From Prosthecobacter sp. SYSU 5D2 (lineage in GTDB: Bacteria; Verrucomicrobiota; Verrucomicrobiia; Verrucomicrobiales; Verrucomicrobiaceae), in assembly GCF_039655865.1 (NCBI RefSeq), contig NZ_JBBYXL010000006.1:124001-188000 (forward strand): DNA of 64,000 nucleotides, in the 5' to 3' direction. The notes under the pieces were generated by a model. That model made no database searches. It saw only the letters and a program-made list of their open reading frames with translations, and had not been told where the DNA came from. A program made the position numbers and the translations under genes. Positions 4,057-46,275 of the stretch are shown piece by piece (the first letter of the stretch is position 1; every line of letters starts with the position of its first letter).

Positions 4057-5403
4057 ATGTCCACCACCCTGGAATCCCCCCCACAACCTGCTGAAAAGAA
4101 GGTCGAAGAGACCGAAGTCGGCAATTATTTCGTCAGCAACTATCCCCCGTTTTCGTTTTGGAAACCGGACCAGGTGCCAGTGGTGGAAGGCGTGCTCGCC
4201 CGTCCGGCCCCCACAGACGTGCCCCTCGGCGTCTATTTCCACATCCCTTTTTGCCGCAAGCGTTGCCATTTCTGCTATTTCAAAGTCTATACCGACAAAA
4301 ACGCCGCCGAGATCAAAGCCTATATTGATGCGGGCATGCGGGAGATGGAGCGCTTCGCCAAACAGCCTTACATCGCCGGTCGCAAAGCGCACTTCGTTTA
4401 CTTCGGCGGCGGCACCCCCAGCTATCTGAGCGTGCCTCAGCTCAAGGACCTCACCAGCCGCATGAAGGACCTAGTGAGCTGGGACGGCGCTGCTGAAGTC
4501 GCCTTTGAGGCCGAGCCGGGCACCCTGAATGAGAAAAAGCTGACTGGCATCCGTGAGGTCGGCGTTACTCGTCTGAGCATCGGTGTGGAAAACTTTGATG
4601 ATCACATCCTGGAAAGCAACGGTCGTGCCCACCGCAGCGGTGAGGTGGACAAAGCCTACCACTTCGCCCGGACGCTCGGTTTTGAGCACATCAACATTGA
4701 CCTCATCGCCGGGATGATGAACGAGACCTGGGAAAACTGGAAGGACACTGTGGCCAAGGGCATCGCCCTTGGGCCGGATGCCGTGACCATTTACCAGATG
4801 GAAGTGCCGTATAACACCACCATCTACAAGCAGATGCGGGAAGAAGGCAAAGAAACCGCTCCCGTCGCCAACTGGCAGACCAAGCGCGACTGGGTCAGCT
4901 ACGCCTTTGATGAATTCGTCAAAAATGGTTATACTGTCACCAGCGCCTATACCGTGGTGAAGGACCCGGAGCGCATCAAGTTCATCTACCGCGACGCCCT
5001 CTGGGAAGGTGCGGATCTGCTGAGCTGCGGGGTGGCCTCCTTTGGCCATCTGGGCGGCGTGCATTACCAGAACCAGGCTGAAGTGGGCCCCTACATGCAG
5101 GCCGTGGATGCCGGTCAGCTGCCTATCTTCCGCGCCTATGAAACCAGCCACGAGGAACGTTTCGTGCGTGAATTTATCCTCAAGCTGAAGCTGGGACACA
5201 GCGAGTTTGGCTATTACCAGGAAAAATTTGGTGAGGATCCCCTCAAGTTTTTTGCCCCCCAGTTGAACTATCTCCAGAGCGAAGGCTTTGCCCAGCTCAC
5301 CGACAAGGACATCACGCTGACTCGCGACGGCCTGCTGCAAGTGGACCGTCTGTTGCACGATTTCTTCCTGCCCCAGCATCGCCAGTATGCCCGCTACACT
5401 TGA
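4057..5403 (+). CDS. Coproporphyrinogen III oxidase-family radical SAM protein (HemN/HemW-like)
   Basis: 448 residues. The radical SAM cluster motif is HIPFCRKRCHFC (C-x3-C-x2-C), followed by YF as in HemW-like proteins. FGGGTPSYL is the SAM-binding glycine motif, and RLSIGVENFDD plus HINIDLIAGMM match the HemN-family barrel. A C-terminal winged-helix-like HemN_C region runs from about residue 360. The family includes true coproporphyrinogen dehydrogenases, heme chaperones and C-methyltransferases, and the sequence alone does not say which this is. It overlaps the next gene by 17 bases, so the two are very likely translated together. The neighbour looks like a chorismate-lyase-fold protein, hinting at a quinone or aromatic cofactor route rather than routine heme synthesis. 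Confidence 0.8.
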   Translation: MSTTLESPPQPAEKKVEETEVGNYFVSNYPPFSFWKPDQVPVVEGVLARPAPTDVPLGVYFHIPFCRKRCHFCYFKVYTDKNAAEIKAYIDAGMREMERFAKQPYIAGRKAHFVYFGGGTPSYLSVPQLKDLTSRMKDLVSWDGAAEVAFEAEPGTLNEKKLTGIREVGVTRLSIGVENFDDHILESNGRAHRSGEVDKAYHFARTLGFEHINIDLIAGMMNETWENWKDTVAKGIALGPDAVTIYQMEVPYNTTIYKQMREEGKETAPVANWQTKRDWVSYAFDEFVKNGYTVTSAYTVVKDPERIKFIYRDALWEGADLLSCGVASFGHLGGVHYQNQAEVGPYMQAVDAGQLPIFRAYETSHEERFVREFILKLKLGHSEFGYYQEKFGEDPLKFFAPQLNYLQSEGFAQLTDKDITLTRDGLLQVDRLLHDFFLPQHRQYARYT

Positions 5404-5959
5404 TGCCCATCCCCGCCCTGAAACCGTCCGCGAGGATGACCTGGCGCCTCTGGTGTTCTTTTACGGCATCGGCAGCGCCCGTCCCCGGGTGACCTTTGTG
5501 GAGCCGGATGAGCTGCCGGAGCATGAACGCTGGTTCCTCGTCCACGACATTGATATGACCCCCCGCCTGCGGGAGGGCCACGGCTGCGAGATTGACCTCG
5601 ACGTCCACGCCCGCGCCCGCATCGGCAACTACCTGGTCCGCGCCAGTGTGCTGAACCGCCGCAGCGATGGCAAGCCCGTCGAGTTCGGAGCCATCGGCAT
5701 TCATCTGGATCTCCTGCCGGAAGAAGCCCAGGCCCTCGTCATCGAAGGCCGCGTCCCCTTTGGCGCCATCCTGGAGCGATACCAGGTCGCCCACAGCAGC
5801 CACCCGCGCGGCTTCTTCCGAATCGCCGTGGATGCCCGCCTCGCGGAACTCCTCGGCGCCACCAGCGGCCAGATCCTCTTTGGCCGCTGCAACGAACTCC
5901 GCCACGCCTCGGGCCGTGTACTCGCCGATGTAGTTGAGGTATTGCCGAGAGGGATGTAA
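5387..5959 (+). CDS. Hypothetical protein, possible chorismate-lyase (UbiC)-like fold
   Basis: 190 residues, soluble. The run YLVRASVLNRRSDGKPVEFG, followed by IHLDLLPEEAQALV and VPFGAILER, resembles the beta-strand order of the UbiC/UTRA fold (R-V-x-L...G-P-V-E...I-x-x-P-L-G-x-I-L). UbiC releases pyruvate from chorismate to give 4-hydroxybenzoate. I cannot confirm the catalytic residues, so function is only suggested. Its start overlaps the end of the HemN-like radical SAM gene by 17 bases, which argues for joint expression. The toxin-antitoxin module that follows is 9 bases downstream but is probably unrelated. Confidence 0.45.
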   Translation: MPATLDAHPRPETVREDDLAPLVFFYGIGSARPRVTFVEPDELPEHERWFLVHDIDMTPRLREGHGCEIDLDVHARARIGNYLVRASVLNRRSDGKPVEFGAIGIHLDLLPEEAQALVIEGRVPFGAILERYQVAHSSHPRGFFRIAVDARLAELLGATSGQILFGRCNELRHASGRVLADVVEVLPRGM

Positions 5960-42083: not shown

Positions 42084-43889
42084 TTAGCTCCAGGCTGGCT
42101 TTTCAGCCTCAAAACGCACCCTTTCCTGGGTCATGGGATGCGTGAAGGCGACCTGCCAGGCATGCAGGCAGAGCGGGGCGGCTGCAGTATCCAGGGTCTG
42201 CGTATCGCCCACGGTCTGGCCGGGGAGATACACCGGATCTCCCACAATCGGGAAACCGAGCTGCCAGAGATGGATGCGGATCTGGTTGGTGCGGCCGGTG
42301 ATGGGCCGGGCCTCCACCAGGGCAGTGCCGTCTTCATTTCGGAGGATGACTTTAAACTCCGTGCGGGCCTCGCGCCCGTTCTCCTCGTCCACCTCCCGGC
42401 TGCCCATGGCACCTGGCACATCACTGATCGGTGCATCTGAGAAAAAAGAGTCTTCAGGAGGATGGCCCTGCACCTTGGCCAGATACACCTTTTCCACCTC
42501 GCCACGGGCAAACTGGCCCTGCACCAGCCCGGCAAAGTGCCGCGTCCGTGCCACCACCAAAAGCCCGGTGGTATTCGCATCCAGACGATGGCAGGCCCGG
42601 GGCTTCTGCGGCAGATAGACCTCCTGCAGGATGTATTGCAGGGTGTTCCGGTTAAATCTCCCGCCCGCATGCATGGGCAGCGGGGCGGGTTTGACGAGAA
42701 CGACCACAGCTTCATCCTCATGCAGAAGACGGATGTCCGCATTCACATCCGGCTCAACATTTCCCGGCAGCAGCCGCAGGTAGCGCTCCCCTGCCCTGAC
42801 GATCAGATCTGGGGCCACAGGCTTCTCGTCCTGGTTCAAAATGCGCTGGTCTGCGAACCGCGAGAGCAGTTCTTCCTGCGGCACATGCGGCAGGATGCTG
42901 GTCAACGTGTCCAGAAGGGTCATGCCATCGCAAGCTCTAGGCACATTCAGCGGCTGCTGATGGTCATACGGCGCGCTGCCAGGCAGCGGCGTGCACACCG
43001 CGCGGATGGCCTCATGCCGGGCGGCGATGTTTTCCGCCATCTTCTGCTCCGTGGTCTTGTAGCAATAGACGCAGGATACATGCTCCACAAAACGCTCGTC
43101 TTTTTGATCTTCCTCCGTCAGGGGCGACTGGCAGACATAGCACTGGGTGGATTCCGTCTCGCTCAGCGCCGGGTCCACGCCCACCCGCTGGTCAAAGACA
43201 AAACACTCGCCGTCGTAGTGGGCACCGCCCACTTCCTCGAAGTACTTCAGAATACCGCCCTCAAGCTGCCACACCTTTTCAAAACCTTCCCGCTCCATGA
43301 ATGGAGCCGCCTTTTCACAGCGGATGCCGCCAGTGCAAAAGGTAACGATAGGCTGCTGCTTCATGGCCTCCGGCAGGCGGCGCACGGCCTCCGGGAAATC
43401 CCGAAAGTTGTTTACACCGATGACATGAGCCCCTTTGAAGGTTCCCAGCTTCACCTCATAATCATTACGCGTGTCCAGCAGCGTCACCGGGCGGCCTTCA
43501 TCCAGCCACTGTTTCAAAGTCCGTGCTTCCATCCGGGGCGAGGTGTATTTCGCCGGCTCGATCCCCTCCACGCCAAAGGCGATGATCTCTTTTTTAATCC
43601 GCACCAGCATGCGCCGGAAAGGCTGCTCCGCACTCTCGCTGACCTTGGGCGTCAGGCCTTCCAGACCAGGGACGTTGCGCAGCTCGGCCACCAGCAGGTC
43701 CACATTCTCCTTCACCCCGGCGATGAACAGATTGATGCCTTCCGTGCTTAGCAAAATGGTCCCTTTCAGGCCCCAGTCCTTGCACTGGCTCACCAGCCGC
43801 TCGCGCAGATCCTTCAGGTCGCTGAGAGAAGCAAATTGATAGGCGGCAATGTTGGTAATGGCGGCTGGGGCTGGAGCGGTCTGGGGCAT
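42084..43889 (-). CDS. Fusion of TrhO-type rhodanese (tRNA hydroxylation) and RluA-family pseudouridine synthase
   Basis: 601 residues. Residues 1-300 are a complete TrhO/YceA protein: an acylphosphatase-like N-terminus (LKGTILLSTEGINLFIAG), a rhodanese domain with Cys185 in TFCTGGIRCEK, and a C-terminal CxxC pair (Cys250/253 and Cys273/276). TrhO makes 5-hydroxyuridine at position 34 of tRNAs. Residues about 310-601 are an RluA-type pseudouridine synthase with an S4-like start and the catalytic motif HRLDANTTGLLV (Asp437), then ITGRTNQIRIHL. The two enzymes modify uridines in RNA, so the fusion is sensible. It is divergent from the AEP-like gene by 113 bases. Frame is continuous, with no sign of a sequencing join. 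Confidence 0.92.
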   Translation of the reverse strand: MPQTAPAPAAITNIAAYQFASLSDLKDLRERLVSQCKDWGLKGTILLSTEGINLFIAGVKENVDLLVAELRNVPGLEGLTPKVSESAEQPFRRMLVRIKKEIIAFGVEGIEPAKYTSPRMEARTLKQWLDEGRPVTLLDTRNDYEVKLGTFKGAHVIGVNNFRDFPEAVRRLPEAMKQQPIVTFCTGGIRCEKAAPFMEREGFEKVWQLEGGILKYFEEVGGAHYDGECFVFDQRVGVDPALSETESTQCYVCQSPLTEEDQKDERFVEHVSCVYCYKTTEQKMAENIAARHEAIRAVCTPLPGSAPYDHQQPLNVPRACDGMTLLDTLTSILPHVPQEELLSRFADQRILNQDEKPVAPDLIVRAGERYLRLLPGNVEPDVNADIRLLHEDEAVVVLVKPAPLPMHAGGRFNRNTLQYILQEVYLPQKPRACHRLDANTTGLLVVARTRHFAGLVQGQFARGEVEKVYLAKVQGHPPEDSFFSDAPISDVPGAMGSREVDEENGREARTEFKVILRNEDGTALVEARPITGRTNQIRIHLWQLGFPIVGDPVYLPGQTVGDTQTLDTAAAPLCLHAWQVAFTHPMTQERVRFEAEKPAWS

Positions 43890-44002: not shown

Positions 44003-45442
44003 ATGAGCACGCAGGGATTCCGTGTGAAACGAATACCCTGGATGACTCCTTTTTACAGGGACGATGCCATCCGGCAGCGTCTGATCGAATTTCTGGGTGG
44101 TGAAACGCTGGACCAGGTGACGGCTGCTTACGTCACCCACTCGGACCGCAGCCAGTTTCGCCGTGACCAGCTCATGCCGCCAAAGGAGCTGGACTGGTTT
44201 TTGGAGAGGGATCTGGACATTGCCCGCTCGCTGGCGGATTCAGAATCCCTCATTTTCCATCTCGACATTGAGTATGTGAATTTTGACTCTCCGGCAGAAG
44301 CGCACCTGGACCCCGAGCGCACTTTTGAAATTCAGGAACCTGTGGTGCGTGTAATCGAATGCCTGCTATTGCACTGGGGCATCCGCCCGCTGCACATCCT
44401 GACCGGCCAGGGGCATCATTTTGTCTGGCGCGTGGGCAGGCATACGGCCCTGGCCAAACGTCTTGTCCTGCTGGAGCCCGCCCCGGAGCTGCGCCAGGAA
44501 TGCATGGAGAAGGTGCCGCCCGAGTTCTCCCATCTCATTGACGCGACGGCCCAGAGCTCCTTCTCCGCGCAATCGCTGATCATGGAATACGTCGCACACC
44601 GCATCAAGGAGGACGCCGCACCACTCATGGAAATCCCGGTGGAAATTACGGCCGTCCATGTCGGCCCCAGCCGGTCTGGCCGCCGTGAAATCGTCTCTGT
44701 GGATATCTCTGAGTATGGGGATCCACTGTATTCGCGGATGGTCCGCCAGCCCTTCACTTATTACCTGAAACCCTGGATGCAGGGACTGGCGGACGACCCA
44801 GCGGTGAGAGGCCAAATCCCGCTCATCCGTGTCGTCCCCCTGCATGAAATGGATGTCCGTCTTGCCCTGAAGGTTCGTCAGGAGGAGGCGGAGGTGCGCG
44901 ACCTGGCCCGCCGTGCCTGCGTGCGCATCCCGGAACAGACCCACGGCACCGCCAAGCTGGTGGAAGAATACCTCACTTCTCCGCTGCGGCGTTTTCACCA
45001 GTTCTTCTATTCAGACCATCACGACCCCGTCGAACGCTGGCCACAAACTTATCATCAGACGCCCTCGCATCTCCTGCCCCCATGCATCCGGGTGCTGCTG
45101 GATGACCCCAATGACCGGCTGTTGAAACCGGCGGGCATGCAGCTTGTCACTCGCAGCCTGCTGGCCAAAGGCTGGCATCCGCGCCACATCGCCGGCCTGA
45201 TACGCTCCAAATTCGAGAACCCGGACTACGGCTGGGGACTGGACTGGGGCGATTACAATGCTGCCGTGAGGGCTGATTTTTACACCCGCATCTTTGCCGG
45301 ACTGCGTGCCACCGGCCTGGATGAACTGGTGGATTTCAACTGTGTCTCCACCCAGGAAAAAGGTTTCTGCCACTATCCCTGCGATGCCGGGAACTGCCTG
45401 GCCCCGTTACGTCAAACCCTCCTCACCCACCCCATGTTATGA
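44003..45442 (+). CDS. Putative archaeo-eukaryotic primase (AEP)-like protein with PriL-like cysteine domain
   Basis: 479 residues from the ATG at 44003; starts at 43916 and 44042 are possible. I recognise no annotated bacterial family, but the motif order fits AEPs: motif I FHLDIEY (Asp88, Glu90), motif II TGQGHHFVW (His138/139), and motif III VSVDISEYGDPLYSRMVRQPF (Asp234, Arg248), which resembles the PriS stretch that ends in R-x-P-F-S. The C-terminal third resembles the iron-sulfur domain of primase large subunit: LLPPC (Cys361), a helical stretch LLAKGWHPRHIAGLI, then Cys447, GFC (Cys456), Cys460 and Cys465. So one chain may join PriS and PriL functions. It overlaps the next gene by 4 bases. 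Primer or gap-filling synthesis is inferred. Confidence 0.6.
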   Translation: MSTQGFRVKRIPWMTPFYRDDAIRQRLIEFLGGETLDQVTAAYVTHSDRSQFRRDQLMPPKELDWFLERDLDIARSLADSESLIFHLDIEYVNFDSPAEAHLDPERTFEIQEPVVRVIECLLLHWGIRPLHILTGQGHHFVWRVGRHTALAKRLVLLEPAPELRQECMEKVPPEFSHLIDATAQSSFSAQSLIMEYVAHRIKEDAAPLMEIPVEITAVHVGPSRSGRREIVSVDISEYGDPLYSRMVRQPFTYYLKPWMQGLADDPAVRGQIPLIRVVPLHEMDVRLALKVRQEEAEVRDLARRACVRIPEQTHGTAKLVEEYLTSPLRRFHQFFYSDHHDPVERWPQTYHQTPSHLLPPCIRVLLDDPNDRLLKPAGMQLVTRSLLAKGWHPRHIAGLIRSKFENPDYGWGLDWGDYNAAVRADFYTRIFAGLRATGLDELVDFNCVSTQEKGFCHYPCDAGNCLAPLRQTLLTHPML

Positions 45443-46275
45443 ACCAATGGCCCATCGGACTTTCCACCGGCTGCTTTTATCATCGCAGCATCTTTGACGT
45501 GCTGGGTGACATCCACGCCAGCGGCTTCCGGCAGATTGAAATCTGCTCCTACCCCAAACACCTGGACTATCACCAAAAAGACCAGGTGCGCGAGGCTGGC
45601 GAAATGATGCGGAACCTGGGACTCCACCCCTTTTCCTTTCATGCTCCCTTTGCTGATCATATAGACATCACCTCCCTCGATGAATCCACCCGTCGGGGTG
45701 CCGTGCAGGAACTGATTGTCGCCTGTGAAGCCGCCGCCGCCATGGGAGCACGTCACATTGTCCTGCATCCGGGTCCTGAGCGGGAAGGCCGGCCGCCTGA
45801 GGAGGAATTCCTGCGGCACATGAACTATGCGGCCGAGTCACTCAACATCGTCGCCCGCCGCTGCTGTGAGCTGGATGTGCACCTGCTGCTGGAGAACATG
45901 CTTCCACACCTTTTGTTCGGCCACACCAGTGACATGCTTTACCTCTTGGGACAGATCCGCGAATGCAATGTCGGCACCTGCCTGGATACCGGCCATGCCA
46001 GCCTGGCCGGGGAAATCGGAACCGTGATCCACAAGCTTTCCGGCCACCTGAAAATGCTCCATGCAAACGACAACCACGGTAATTCCGATGCCCACCTGAA
46101 TCCCGGTGATGGCCGCATAGACTGGGGCTGGCTGCTTTCTGAATTAAAGCACCACCATTTCAAAGGCTCACTCATTCTGGAGCTTGCAGGCTACCCCGGT
46201 GAGACCACCCACGATACGTTACATCGCGCACGCCGTGCTTTTGATTATCTGGTGGCCGTCAATCAAAATGGCTGA
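45439..46275 (+). CDS. Endonuclease IV / xylose-isomerase-fold TIM barrel (sugar phosphate isomerase/epimerase family)
   Basis: 278 residues. All nine metal-ligand positions of endonuclease IV have counterparts: His68 (SFHAPF), His110 (HPGPE), Glu152, Asp183 and His186 (CLDTGHA), His208, Asp217 and His219 (SDAHLNPGDG), and Glu248 (ILELAG). The spacing follows E. coli Nfo closely. The DxH...PGDGRIDW motif is equally typical of COG1082 sugar isomerases, so an isomerase/epimerase is the default reading. Its start overlaps the AEP-like gene by ATGA, so the two are coupled; with a primase/polymerase neighbour an AP-endonuclease role becomes reasonable. A terminator hairpin follows 12 bases after its stop. 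Confidence 0.85.
   Translation: MNQWPIGLSTGCFYHRSIFDVLGDIHASGFRQIEICSYPKHLDYHQKDQVREAGEMMRNLGLHPFSFHAPFADHIDITSLDESTRRGAVQELIVACEAAAAMGARHIVLHPGPEREGRPPEEEFLRHMNYAAESLNIVARRCCELDVHLLLENMLPHLLFGHTSDMLYLLGQIRECNVGTCLDTGHASLAGEIGTVIHKLSGHLKMLHANDNHGNSDAHLNPGDGRIDWGWLLSELKHHHFKGSLILELAGYPGETTHDTLHRARRAFDYLVAVNQNG

Follow-up and report, generated by a model that had tools for sequence, protein, structure and literature searches.

The window analyzed here, a stretch of 64,000 nucleotides from a Prosthecobacter chromosome, raises the question of what a bacterium does with a single-chain protein that pairs an AEP-type catalytic domain with a cysteine-bearing C-terminus reminiscent of the primase large subunit. 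A first-pass annotation, made from the sequence alone, read the gene as a possible PriS/PriL-type primase. The gene encodes an AEP variant with a probable repair role and a nearly obligate partner, which that annotation missed. The features on which the argument turns are as follows.

44003–45442, + strand: single-chain AEP (PriS-like) protein with a candidate PriL-like C-terminal Cys domain (open reading frame, homologues, model pLDDT 91.7, top Foldseek matches AEPs)
44264–44272, + strand: AEP motif I, D88-x-E90, predicted metal ligands (invariant in 43 of 43, kept in divergent subfamilies, on model strand 82–93)
44405–44419, + strand: AEP motif II, G135-x-G137-x-H139, with the predicted nucleotide-binding His (H139 98% conserved; between strands 130–133 and 137–145)
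44687–44770, + strand: AEP motif III, E229...D234...R245...P250...K256 (invariant columns; strand 229–234 ends at D234)
44849–45418, + strand: all-helical C-terminal domain (aa 283–472), a PriL-CTD/PriCT-like candidate (model pLDDT 89.6; weak PF04104 matches; Cys-dependent profile match)
45083–45085, + strand: C361, within PPC, first Cys of a putative metal or Fe-S site (37 of 48 members; retained together with the tail Cys)
45341–45397, + strand: Cys cluster C447, C456, (C460), C465 (spacing statistics; C460 not conserved)
45439–46275, + strand: endonuclease IV-like TIM-barrel protein P0002 (PF01261, E 7e-39), the operon partner (51 of 52 loci; nine ligands)

The AEP gene is an open frame of 479 aa. 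Translation may begin at M1 (44003) or at M14 (44042): homologues start near M14, and residues 1–11 are disordered in the AlphaFold model. The three motifs read FHLDIEY, TGQGHHF, and VSVDISEYGDP. Residues D88, E90, G135, G137, D234, R245, P250, and K256 are invariant across 43–48 homologues, E229 is invariant or nearly so, and H139 is close behind, so the motifs are not there by chance. Even members at 24–27% identity retain the DxE, a GxH-type motif, and the third Asp, and the order of the motifs (DxD/E, then a motif with His, then hD) is that of the AEP superfamily. The frame, the three ordered motifs, the PPC, and the Cys cluster that had been described at 44003–45442 are thereby confirmed. 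The AEP frame is broken in L050, L051, L052, L053, and L086, which may reflect assembly errors or pseudogenes.

Searches with the single sequence (P0001) against Pfam, NCBIfam, PHROGs, PADLOC, and the PDB gave no match, and the family is undescribed in the sense that the models of the first four collections do not report it. Its fold was approached through an AlphaFold model built from a 43-row alignment (pLDDT 91.7, pTM 0.92), in which D88 and E90 lie on strand 82–93, the GxGxH motif sits between two strands, and D234 closes strand 229–234. When the model was compared with the PDB by Foldseek, places 1–15 were all taken by AEPs (probability up to 0.99, E 0.02–1.2), including Prim-PolC, the LigD polymerase domain, CRISPR Prim-Pol (CAPP), and pRN1, while the matches listed below these had a probability of 0.13 or less. 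A structure search had been proposed at first pass as a check on the AEP reading; a confident model matched AEPs and not some unrelated fold, which, with the motif conservation, bears out an AEP catalytic domain. On sequence and model, membership in the superfamily is established at the level of fold and motif, and the activity is predicted. The whole protein gave only weak primase-like matches among viral models in Foldseek. HHalign comparisons of the N-terminal domain with LigD, PriS, and the viral fusions were negative, as was the positive control, LigD against PriS. A second, weak match in the host genome (C2:392912, 30% over about 110 aa) was judged to be chance.

The most informative feature of the locus, the overlapping downstream gene at 45439–46275, was absent from the first-pass annotation. 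The P0002 gene overlaps the AEP gene by 4 bp (ATGA). A TIM-barrel gene lies directly 3' of the AEP gene in 51 of the 52 testable loci (L037 ends within the AEP gene, and L022 shows the partner only in part), and of the 48 gene pairs measured, 42 overlap, the commonest lengths being 4 and 59 bp. In the 289-genome sample, partner homologues at 45% identity or above occur only beside an AEP gene, and G066 has two AEP copies, each with its own TIM-barrel partner. Homologues of the partner at about 30% identity with no AEP gene nearby were also seen (L081:4904-5752; L082:4186-5019).

What this partner might do can be approached through its ligands. All 54 sequences compared carry H68, H110, E152, D183, H186, H208, D217, H219, and E248 unchanged. 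These residues align with the HAP, HPG, EN/ET, DTxH, H.ND, and DxH motifs seen in structures of endonuclease IV (8axy for the last Glu). The uncharacterized proteins MJ1311 and TTHB071 align over the same motifs. Since the ligand set is shared with MJ1311, it argues for a predicted trinuclear phosphoesterase center and not for a specific substrate. Against the nfo model (TIGR00587), P0002 scored 34.5–36.3 bits (34.5 in the genome search), below the cut-off of 129.65. Canonical Nfo was not found in the host genome, where the sole TIGR00587 match, also below cut-off, is the P0002 gene.

The near-constant presence of a DNA-repair-type nuclease gene downstream makes it probable that the AEP protein mends damaged DNA and does not initiate replication. 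We lean, with modest assurance, toward a repair polymerase that works with its endonuclease IV-like partner in base-excision or single-strand-gap repair during stress or stationary phase. What we infer for the pair, from the catalytic activities and the order in which they act to the type of cluster and the role in the cell, would run as follows. The TIM barrel would first cut at abasic sites or trim 3' ends that are blocked, after which the AEP palm domain (D88, E90, D234, H139) would fill in the short gap, leaving its sealing to a ligase of the host. The C-terminal helical domain would bind the template or gap. The four-Cys site of most members could plausibly hold an Fe-S cluster as in PriL; the site would be optional, because whole clades do without it, and where present it may modulate template holding, a part that falls to the PriL-like domain in PolpTN2 (PMC3973330).

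We prefer this repair reading because gap-filling Prim-PolC and LigD polymerase domains head the Foldseek list, because the overlapping operon is conserved with its nine endonuclease IV ligands kept, because the host is without canonical Nfo, and because SMUG1, Ku, LigD, Fpg, putative SbcC, and stress genes lie near relatives. Mycobacterial Prim-PolC provides a precedent: it binds gaps of 1–3 nt and works with LigC in BER, the two are co-transcribed with FPG in some mycobacteria, and EndoIV was the best end processor in vitro (PMC5663958). Counting against the repair reading are the absence of a ligase from the window operon, a sister subfamily (L116–L118) without the TIM-barrel partner, direct BER or NHEJ neighbors at no more than three loci, and a ligand set that does not fix the substrate.

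The C-terminal half bears most directly on the primase question. At first pass, the spacing of the window cysteines was given as 86, 9, 4, and 5, which is right, and was taken to be unlike that of PriL, which is too pessimistic because the spacing of the family matches archaeal PriL. Among 48 aligned members, C1–C2 is 84–87, C2–C3 is exactly 9 (33 of 33), and C3–C4 is mostly 5–9; C460, found in the window protein and few others (3 of 48), falls outside this pattern. For comparison, the spacing is 80/9/6 in haloarchaeal PriL-like proteins, 74/9/4 in the primase of Thermus phage P23-45, and 66/9/9 in the haloviral fusions, and the Asgard PriL cysteines C252/C334/C343/C388 give 82/9/45 (PMC12770985). 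The family pattern lies within the archaeal range (80/9/6, 82/9/45). About a quarter of the members lack the cysteines, whole clades among them. The 11 members without C1 are also without the tail Cys, as expected of one shared site (Fisher 3e-9 for co-loss, a value confounded by ancestry, with about four changes on the tree and one independent pair on well-supported branches).

Similarity to PriL beyond these residues was sought in several ways. PF04104 (PriL) matched 3 of 30 members weakly and below its cut-off (best E 0.002), and in the members inspected the match covers the C1 segment (L003, 16.9 bits against a cut-off of 22.4). In HHalign, the Cys-bearing members matched viral PriS-PriL fusions and PriL CTDs at 82–92% probability, compared with at most 1.1% in 60 column shuffles and 0.3% when the Cys were masked. 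The real sequences for such comparisons were fetched with an archaeal-like PriL probe, a hand-written consensus that served no other end. Pairwise comparison of the 46 residues after C1 with PriL segments gave z of at most about 2.5, for haloviral sequences only, and we therefore claim no homology to PriL beyond the Cys. Foldseek with the isolated C-terminal domain (model pLDDT 89.6) returned no PriL and nothing else significant, and a PDB search with the C-terminal profile gave chance matches only. In divergent members the PN..LQP and W.P.HI motifs of this domain persist in the absence of any Cys. It is thus an ancient helical module belonging to this family, and the likeness of its putative metal site to that of PriL is credible, though not proven. 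The PriL reading of the C-terminal half is consequently partly supported on sequence grounds: the Cys signature and spacing stand, while the fold search was negative, PF04104 stayed below cut-off, and the profile match depended on the Cys.

If the PriL-like Cys domain is given full weight, the protein could be mainly a primase that, in the manner of eukaryotic PrimPol, reprimes downstream of stalled forks and so serves damage tolerance, while its TIM-barrel partner removes lesions or processes the ends of primers. AEPs often unite primase and polymerase activity, which lends this idea some appeal, and PolpTN2 primes double-stranded DNA synthesis poorly once its PriL-like domain is removed (PMC3973330). 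However, the closest folds are those of gap-fillers, and the partners seen are BER and NHEJ enzymes, not helicases or replisome parts, and we consider a mainly priming role unlikely.

Those partners come from the surroundings of relatives. The sole exception to the TIM-barrel partner is L018, from a Desulfobacteraceae MAG, in which a SMUG1 uracil-DNA glycosylase gene (PF03167 match; 5h93, E 3e-95) lies 7 nt after the AEP stop; an orthologous TIM-barrel partner was not found in the L018 genome. Two Ku genes and a LigD polymerase domain lie divergently upstream of the same AEP gene. An Fpg glycosylase gene is found two genes upstream of the operon in L024 and about 4 kb downstream of it in L045; PolA was considered for the large gene that follows the L045 operon and was rejected, since this gene encodes a Ca-ATPase. 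Direct BER or NHEJ neighbors occur in these three loci only, all MAG contigs. Among 138 neighboring ORFs scanned, the most recurrent families by far were Usp (8) and Hsp20 (7), and stress genes (UspA, Hsp20) are close to the operon in 16 loci. UspA or Hsp20 lies beside the operon in L015, L022, L023, L030, L033, L034, L038, L040, L043, L046, L050, and L051. The flanks of L115, read by eye, appear to encode an HPF-like hibernation factor upstream, with SbcC adjoining. In the window, the divergent neighbor at 42084–43889 (− strand), judged by its sequence, seems to join a rhodanese domain to a pseudouridine synthase of the RluA type.

The Ku and LigD genes of L018, the presence of LigD in the host, and the ability of archaeal PriSL to promote microhomology-mediated end joining (PMC12019639) would together fit a polymerase that processes DNA ends for NHEJ or for the microhomology-mediated pathway. 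We find this distinctly improbable, given that Ku stands beside only one of the loci examined and that LigD of the same genome already supplies an NHEJ Prim-Pol. LigD and LigC Prim-Pols are linked to ligase, Ku, or nuclease repair genes; of the loci here, L018 alone has Ku and LigD beside it, and the window operon has no ligase gene. The host's normal LigD-type Prim-Pol is at G000:C5:171473-172240 (L079), apparently beside a ligase ORF.

The TIM-barrel superfamily includes sugar isomerases too, and among NCBIfam models P0002 scores best against CbiR, though below cut-off, with nfo and sugar epimerases next. The pair could accordingly act on RNA, nucleotides, or sugar phosphate, in RNA repair or cofactor metabolism, with the partner as a sugar-phosphate isomerase or CbiR-like phosphodiesterase. 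The nine endonuclease IV ligands are kept, however, and SMUG1, Ku, and Fpg accompany relatives, which leaves little room for a substrate other than DNA.

The distribution of the family speaks to its place in the cell. When about 85,000 species genomes were scanned, relatives at 40–65% identity turned up at 53 loci in about nine bacterial phyla, with contigs labeled Verrucomicrobiota, Planctomycetota, Fibrobacterota, Omnitrophota, Thermodesulfobacteriota, Acidobacteriota, Myxococcota, Gemmatimonadota, and Hydrogenedentota; labels represented singly carry a binning risk because most relatives are MAG contigs. Counting distant matches, the family occurs in 9 of 289 genomes of the window's phylum; the figures are 14 of 188 for its class, 8 of 345 for the phylum of L018, and 3 of 294 for that of L009. 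Presence this patchy in whole-genome samples means that the gene is not a housekeeping one, and such a role, touched on at first pass, is not supported. The family tree clusters in part by phylum.

Most bacterial AEPs are replication primases of mobile elements (PMC5862659), and the patchy distribution, together with the fused AEP-PriL proteins of viruses and plasmids, might suggest the same here, but this reading is disfavored as highly improbable: no relative was found among 50,697 phage records, 72,556 plasmid records, or the IMG/VR candidates, a scan of neighboring ORFs gave no recurrent mobile-element neighbors, the tree is partly ordered by phylum, and the window looks chromosomal. The operon shows no sign of mobility, in agreement with the earlier remark that no phage genes surround it.

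Two further groups of AEPs lie outside the core family. A sister subfamily at about 37% identity (L116, L117, L118, L123) has no TIM-barrel partner nearby, and in its three aligned members (L116–L118) Asn replaces the motif II His. A distant subfamily at 24–27% identity is without the Cys cluster (L085:2603-4009 and 4346-5674; L119:4582-5928; L120:358-1749; L121:1887-5125; L122:5352-6716), with two copies side by side in L085 and L121; the TIM-barrel partner was not found in the stretches examined.

Bacterial AEPs outside LigD and LigC are already known, mostly as replication proteins of mobile elements. This family combines an unassigned sequence, a chromosomal setting, a nearly obligate endonuclease IV-like operon partner, and a PriL-type Cys signature. 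A repair role would extend polymerase–nuclease BER modules of the Prim-PolC/EndoIV-like kind well past mycobacteria, and the contrast between Cys-bearing and Cys-less clades gives a natural test of what the Fe-S cluster does in primases. We also entertain, as a rather doubtful extension, an undescribed bacterial chromosomal repair pathway: a single-chain PriS-PriL-type Prim-Pol, as a repair-adapted offshoot of the archaeal primase lineage, would use a redox-active Fe-S domain to find or hand off lesions, together with a new endonuclease IV-like branch or SMUG1 as alternative partner.

Among known systems, the mycobacterial Prim-PolC/LigC BER apparatus (PMC5663958; PDB 5op0, 6sa0, 6sa1) is closest in fold, sharing the AEP palm as the top Foldseek match and the association with BER partners (the FPG gene and, in vitro, EndoIV for Prim-PolC). 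Unlike Prim-PolC, the window AEP has no LigC neighbor and no detectable sequence match to it, and its four-Cys helical C-terminal domain is not described for Prim-PolC. The LigD polymerase domain (PDB 4mky, 2r9l; PF21686) likewise shares the AEP fold, and Ku and LigD stand beside L018, but the window AEP forms a separate family and the host encodes its normal LigD Prim-Pol elsewhere. For the partner, endonuclease IV (Nfo, TIGR00587) and MJ1311 (PDB 3wqo) share the TIM barrel and the nine metal ligands conserved in P0002, which is nonetheless closer to MJ1311 than to Nfo (34.5 bits vs. 129.65).

In architecture, the nearest counterparts are the PriS-PriL fusions (PolpTN2 of pTN2, the Thermus phage P23-45 primase, and the HCTV-16/HVTV-2 DNA primase), in which an AEP domain is likewise followed by a four-Cys domain. 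The viral fusions have a C1–C2 distance of 66–74, a C2–C3 distance of 9, and a compact size similar to that of the window AEP. Compact single-chain primases of this kind were seen in an IMG/VR contig and in phage P23-45 (L061:1311-2315; L062:1778-2794); the P23-45 protein is annotated only as primase or small subunit, and its C-terminus weakly matches PF04104. These fusions are viral or plasmid-borne, whereas the window AEP belongs to a chromosomal operon with an endonuclease IV-like gene and resembles them in sequence through its Cys only. With the archaeal and eukaryotic PriL CTD (PF04104), the window protein has in common the PPC motif and archaeal-type Cys spacing, but it stays below the Pfam cut-off, several clades lack the Cys, and the predicted fold was not matched to PriL. 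The PrimPol-PV1 supergroup, finally, is found on mobile elements and is commonly fused to helicase, PriCT, or HTH domains (PMC5862659), a setting from which the window AEP family, chromosomal and paired with a putative repair nuclease, stands apart.
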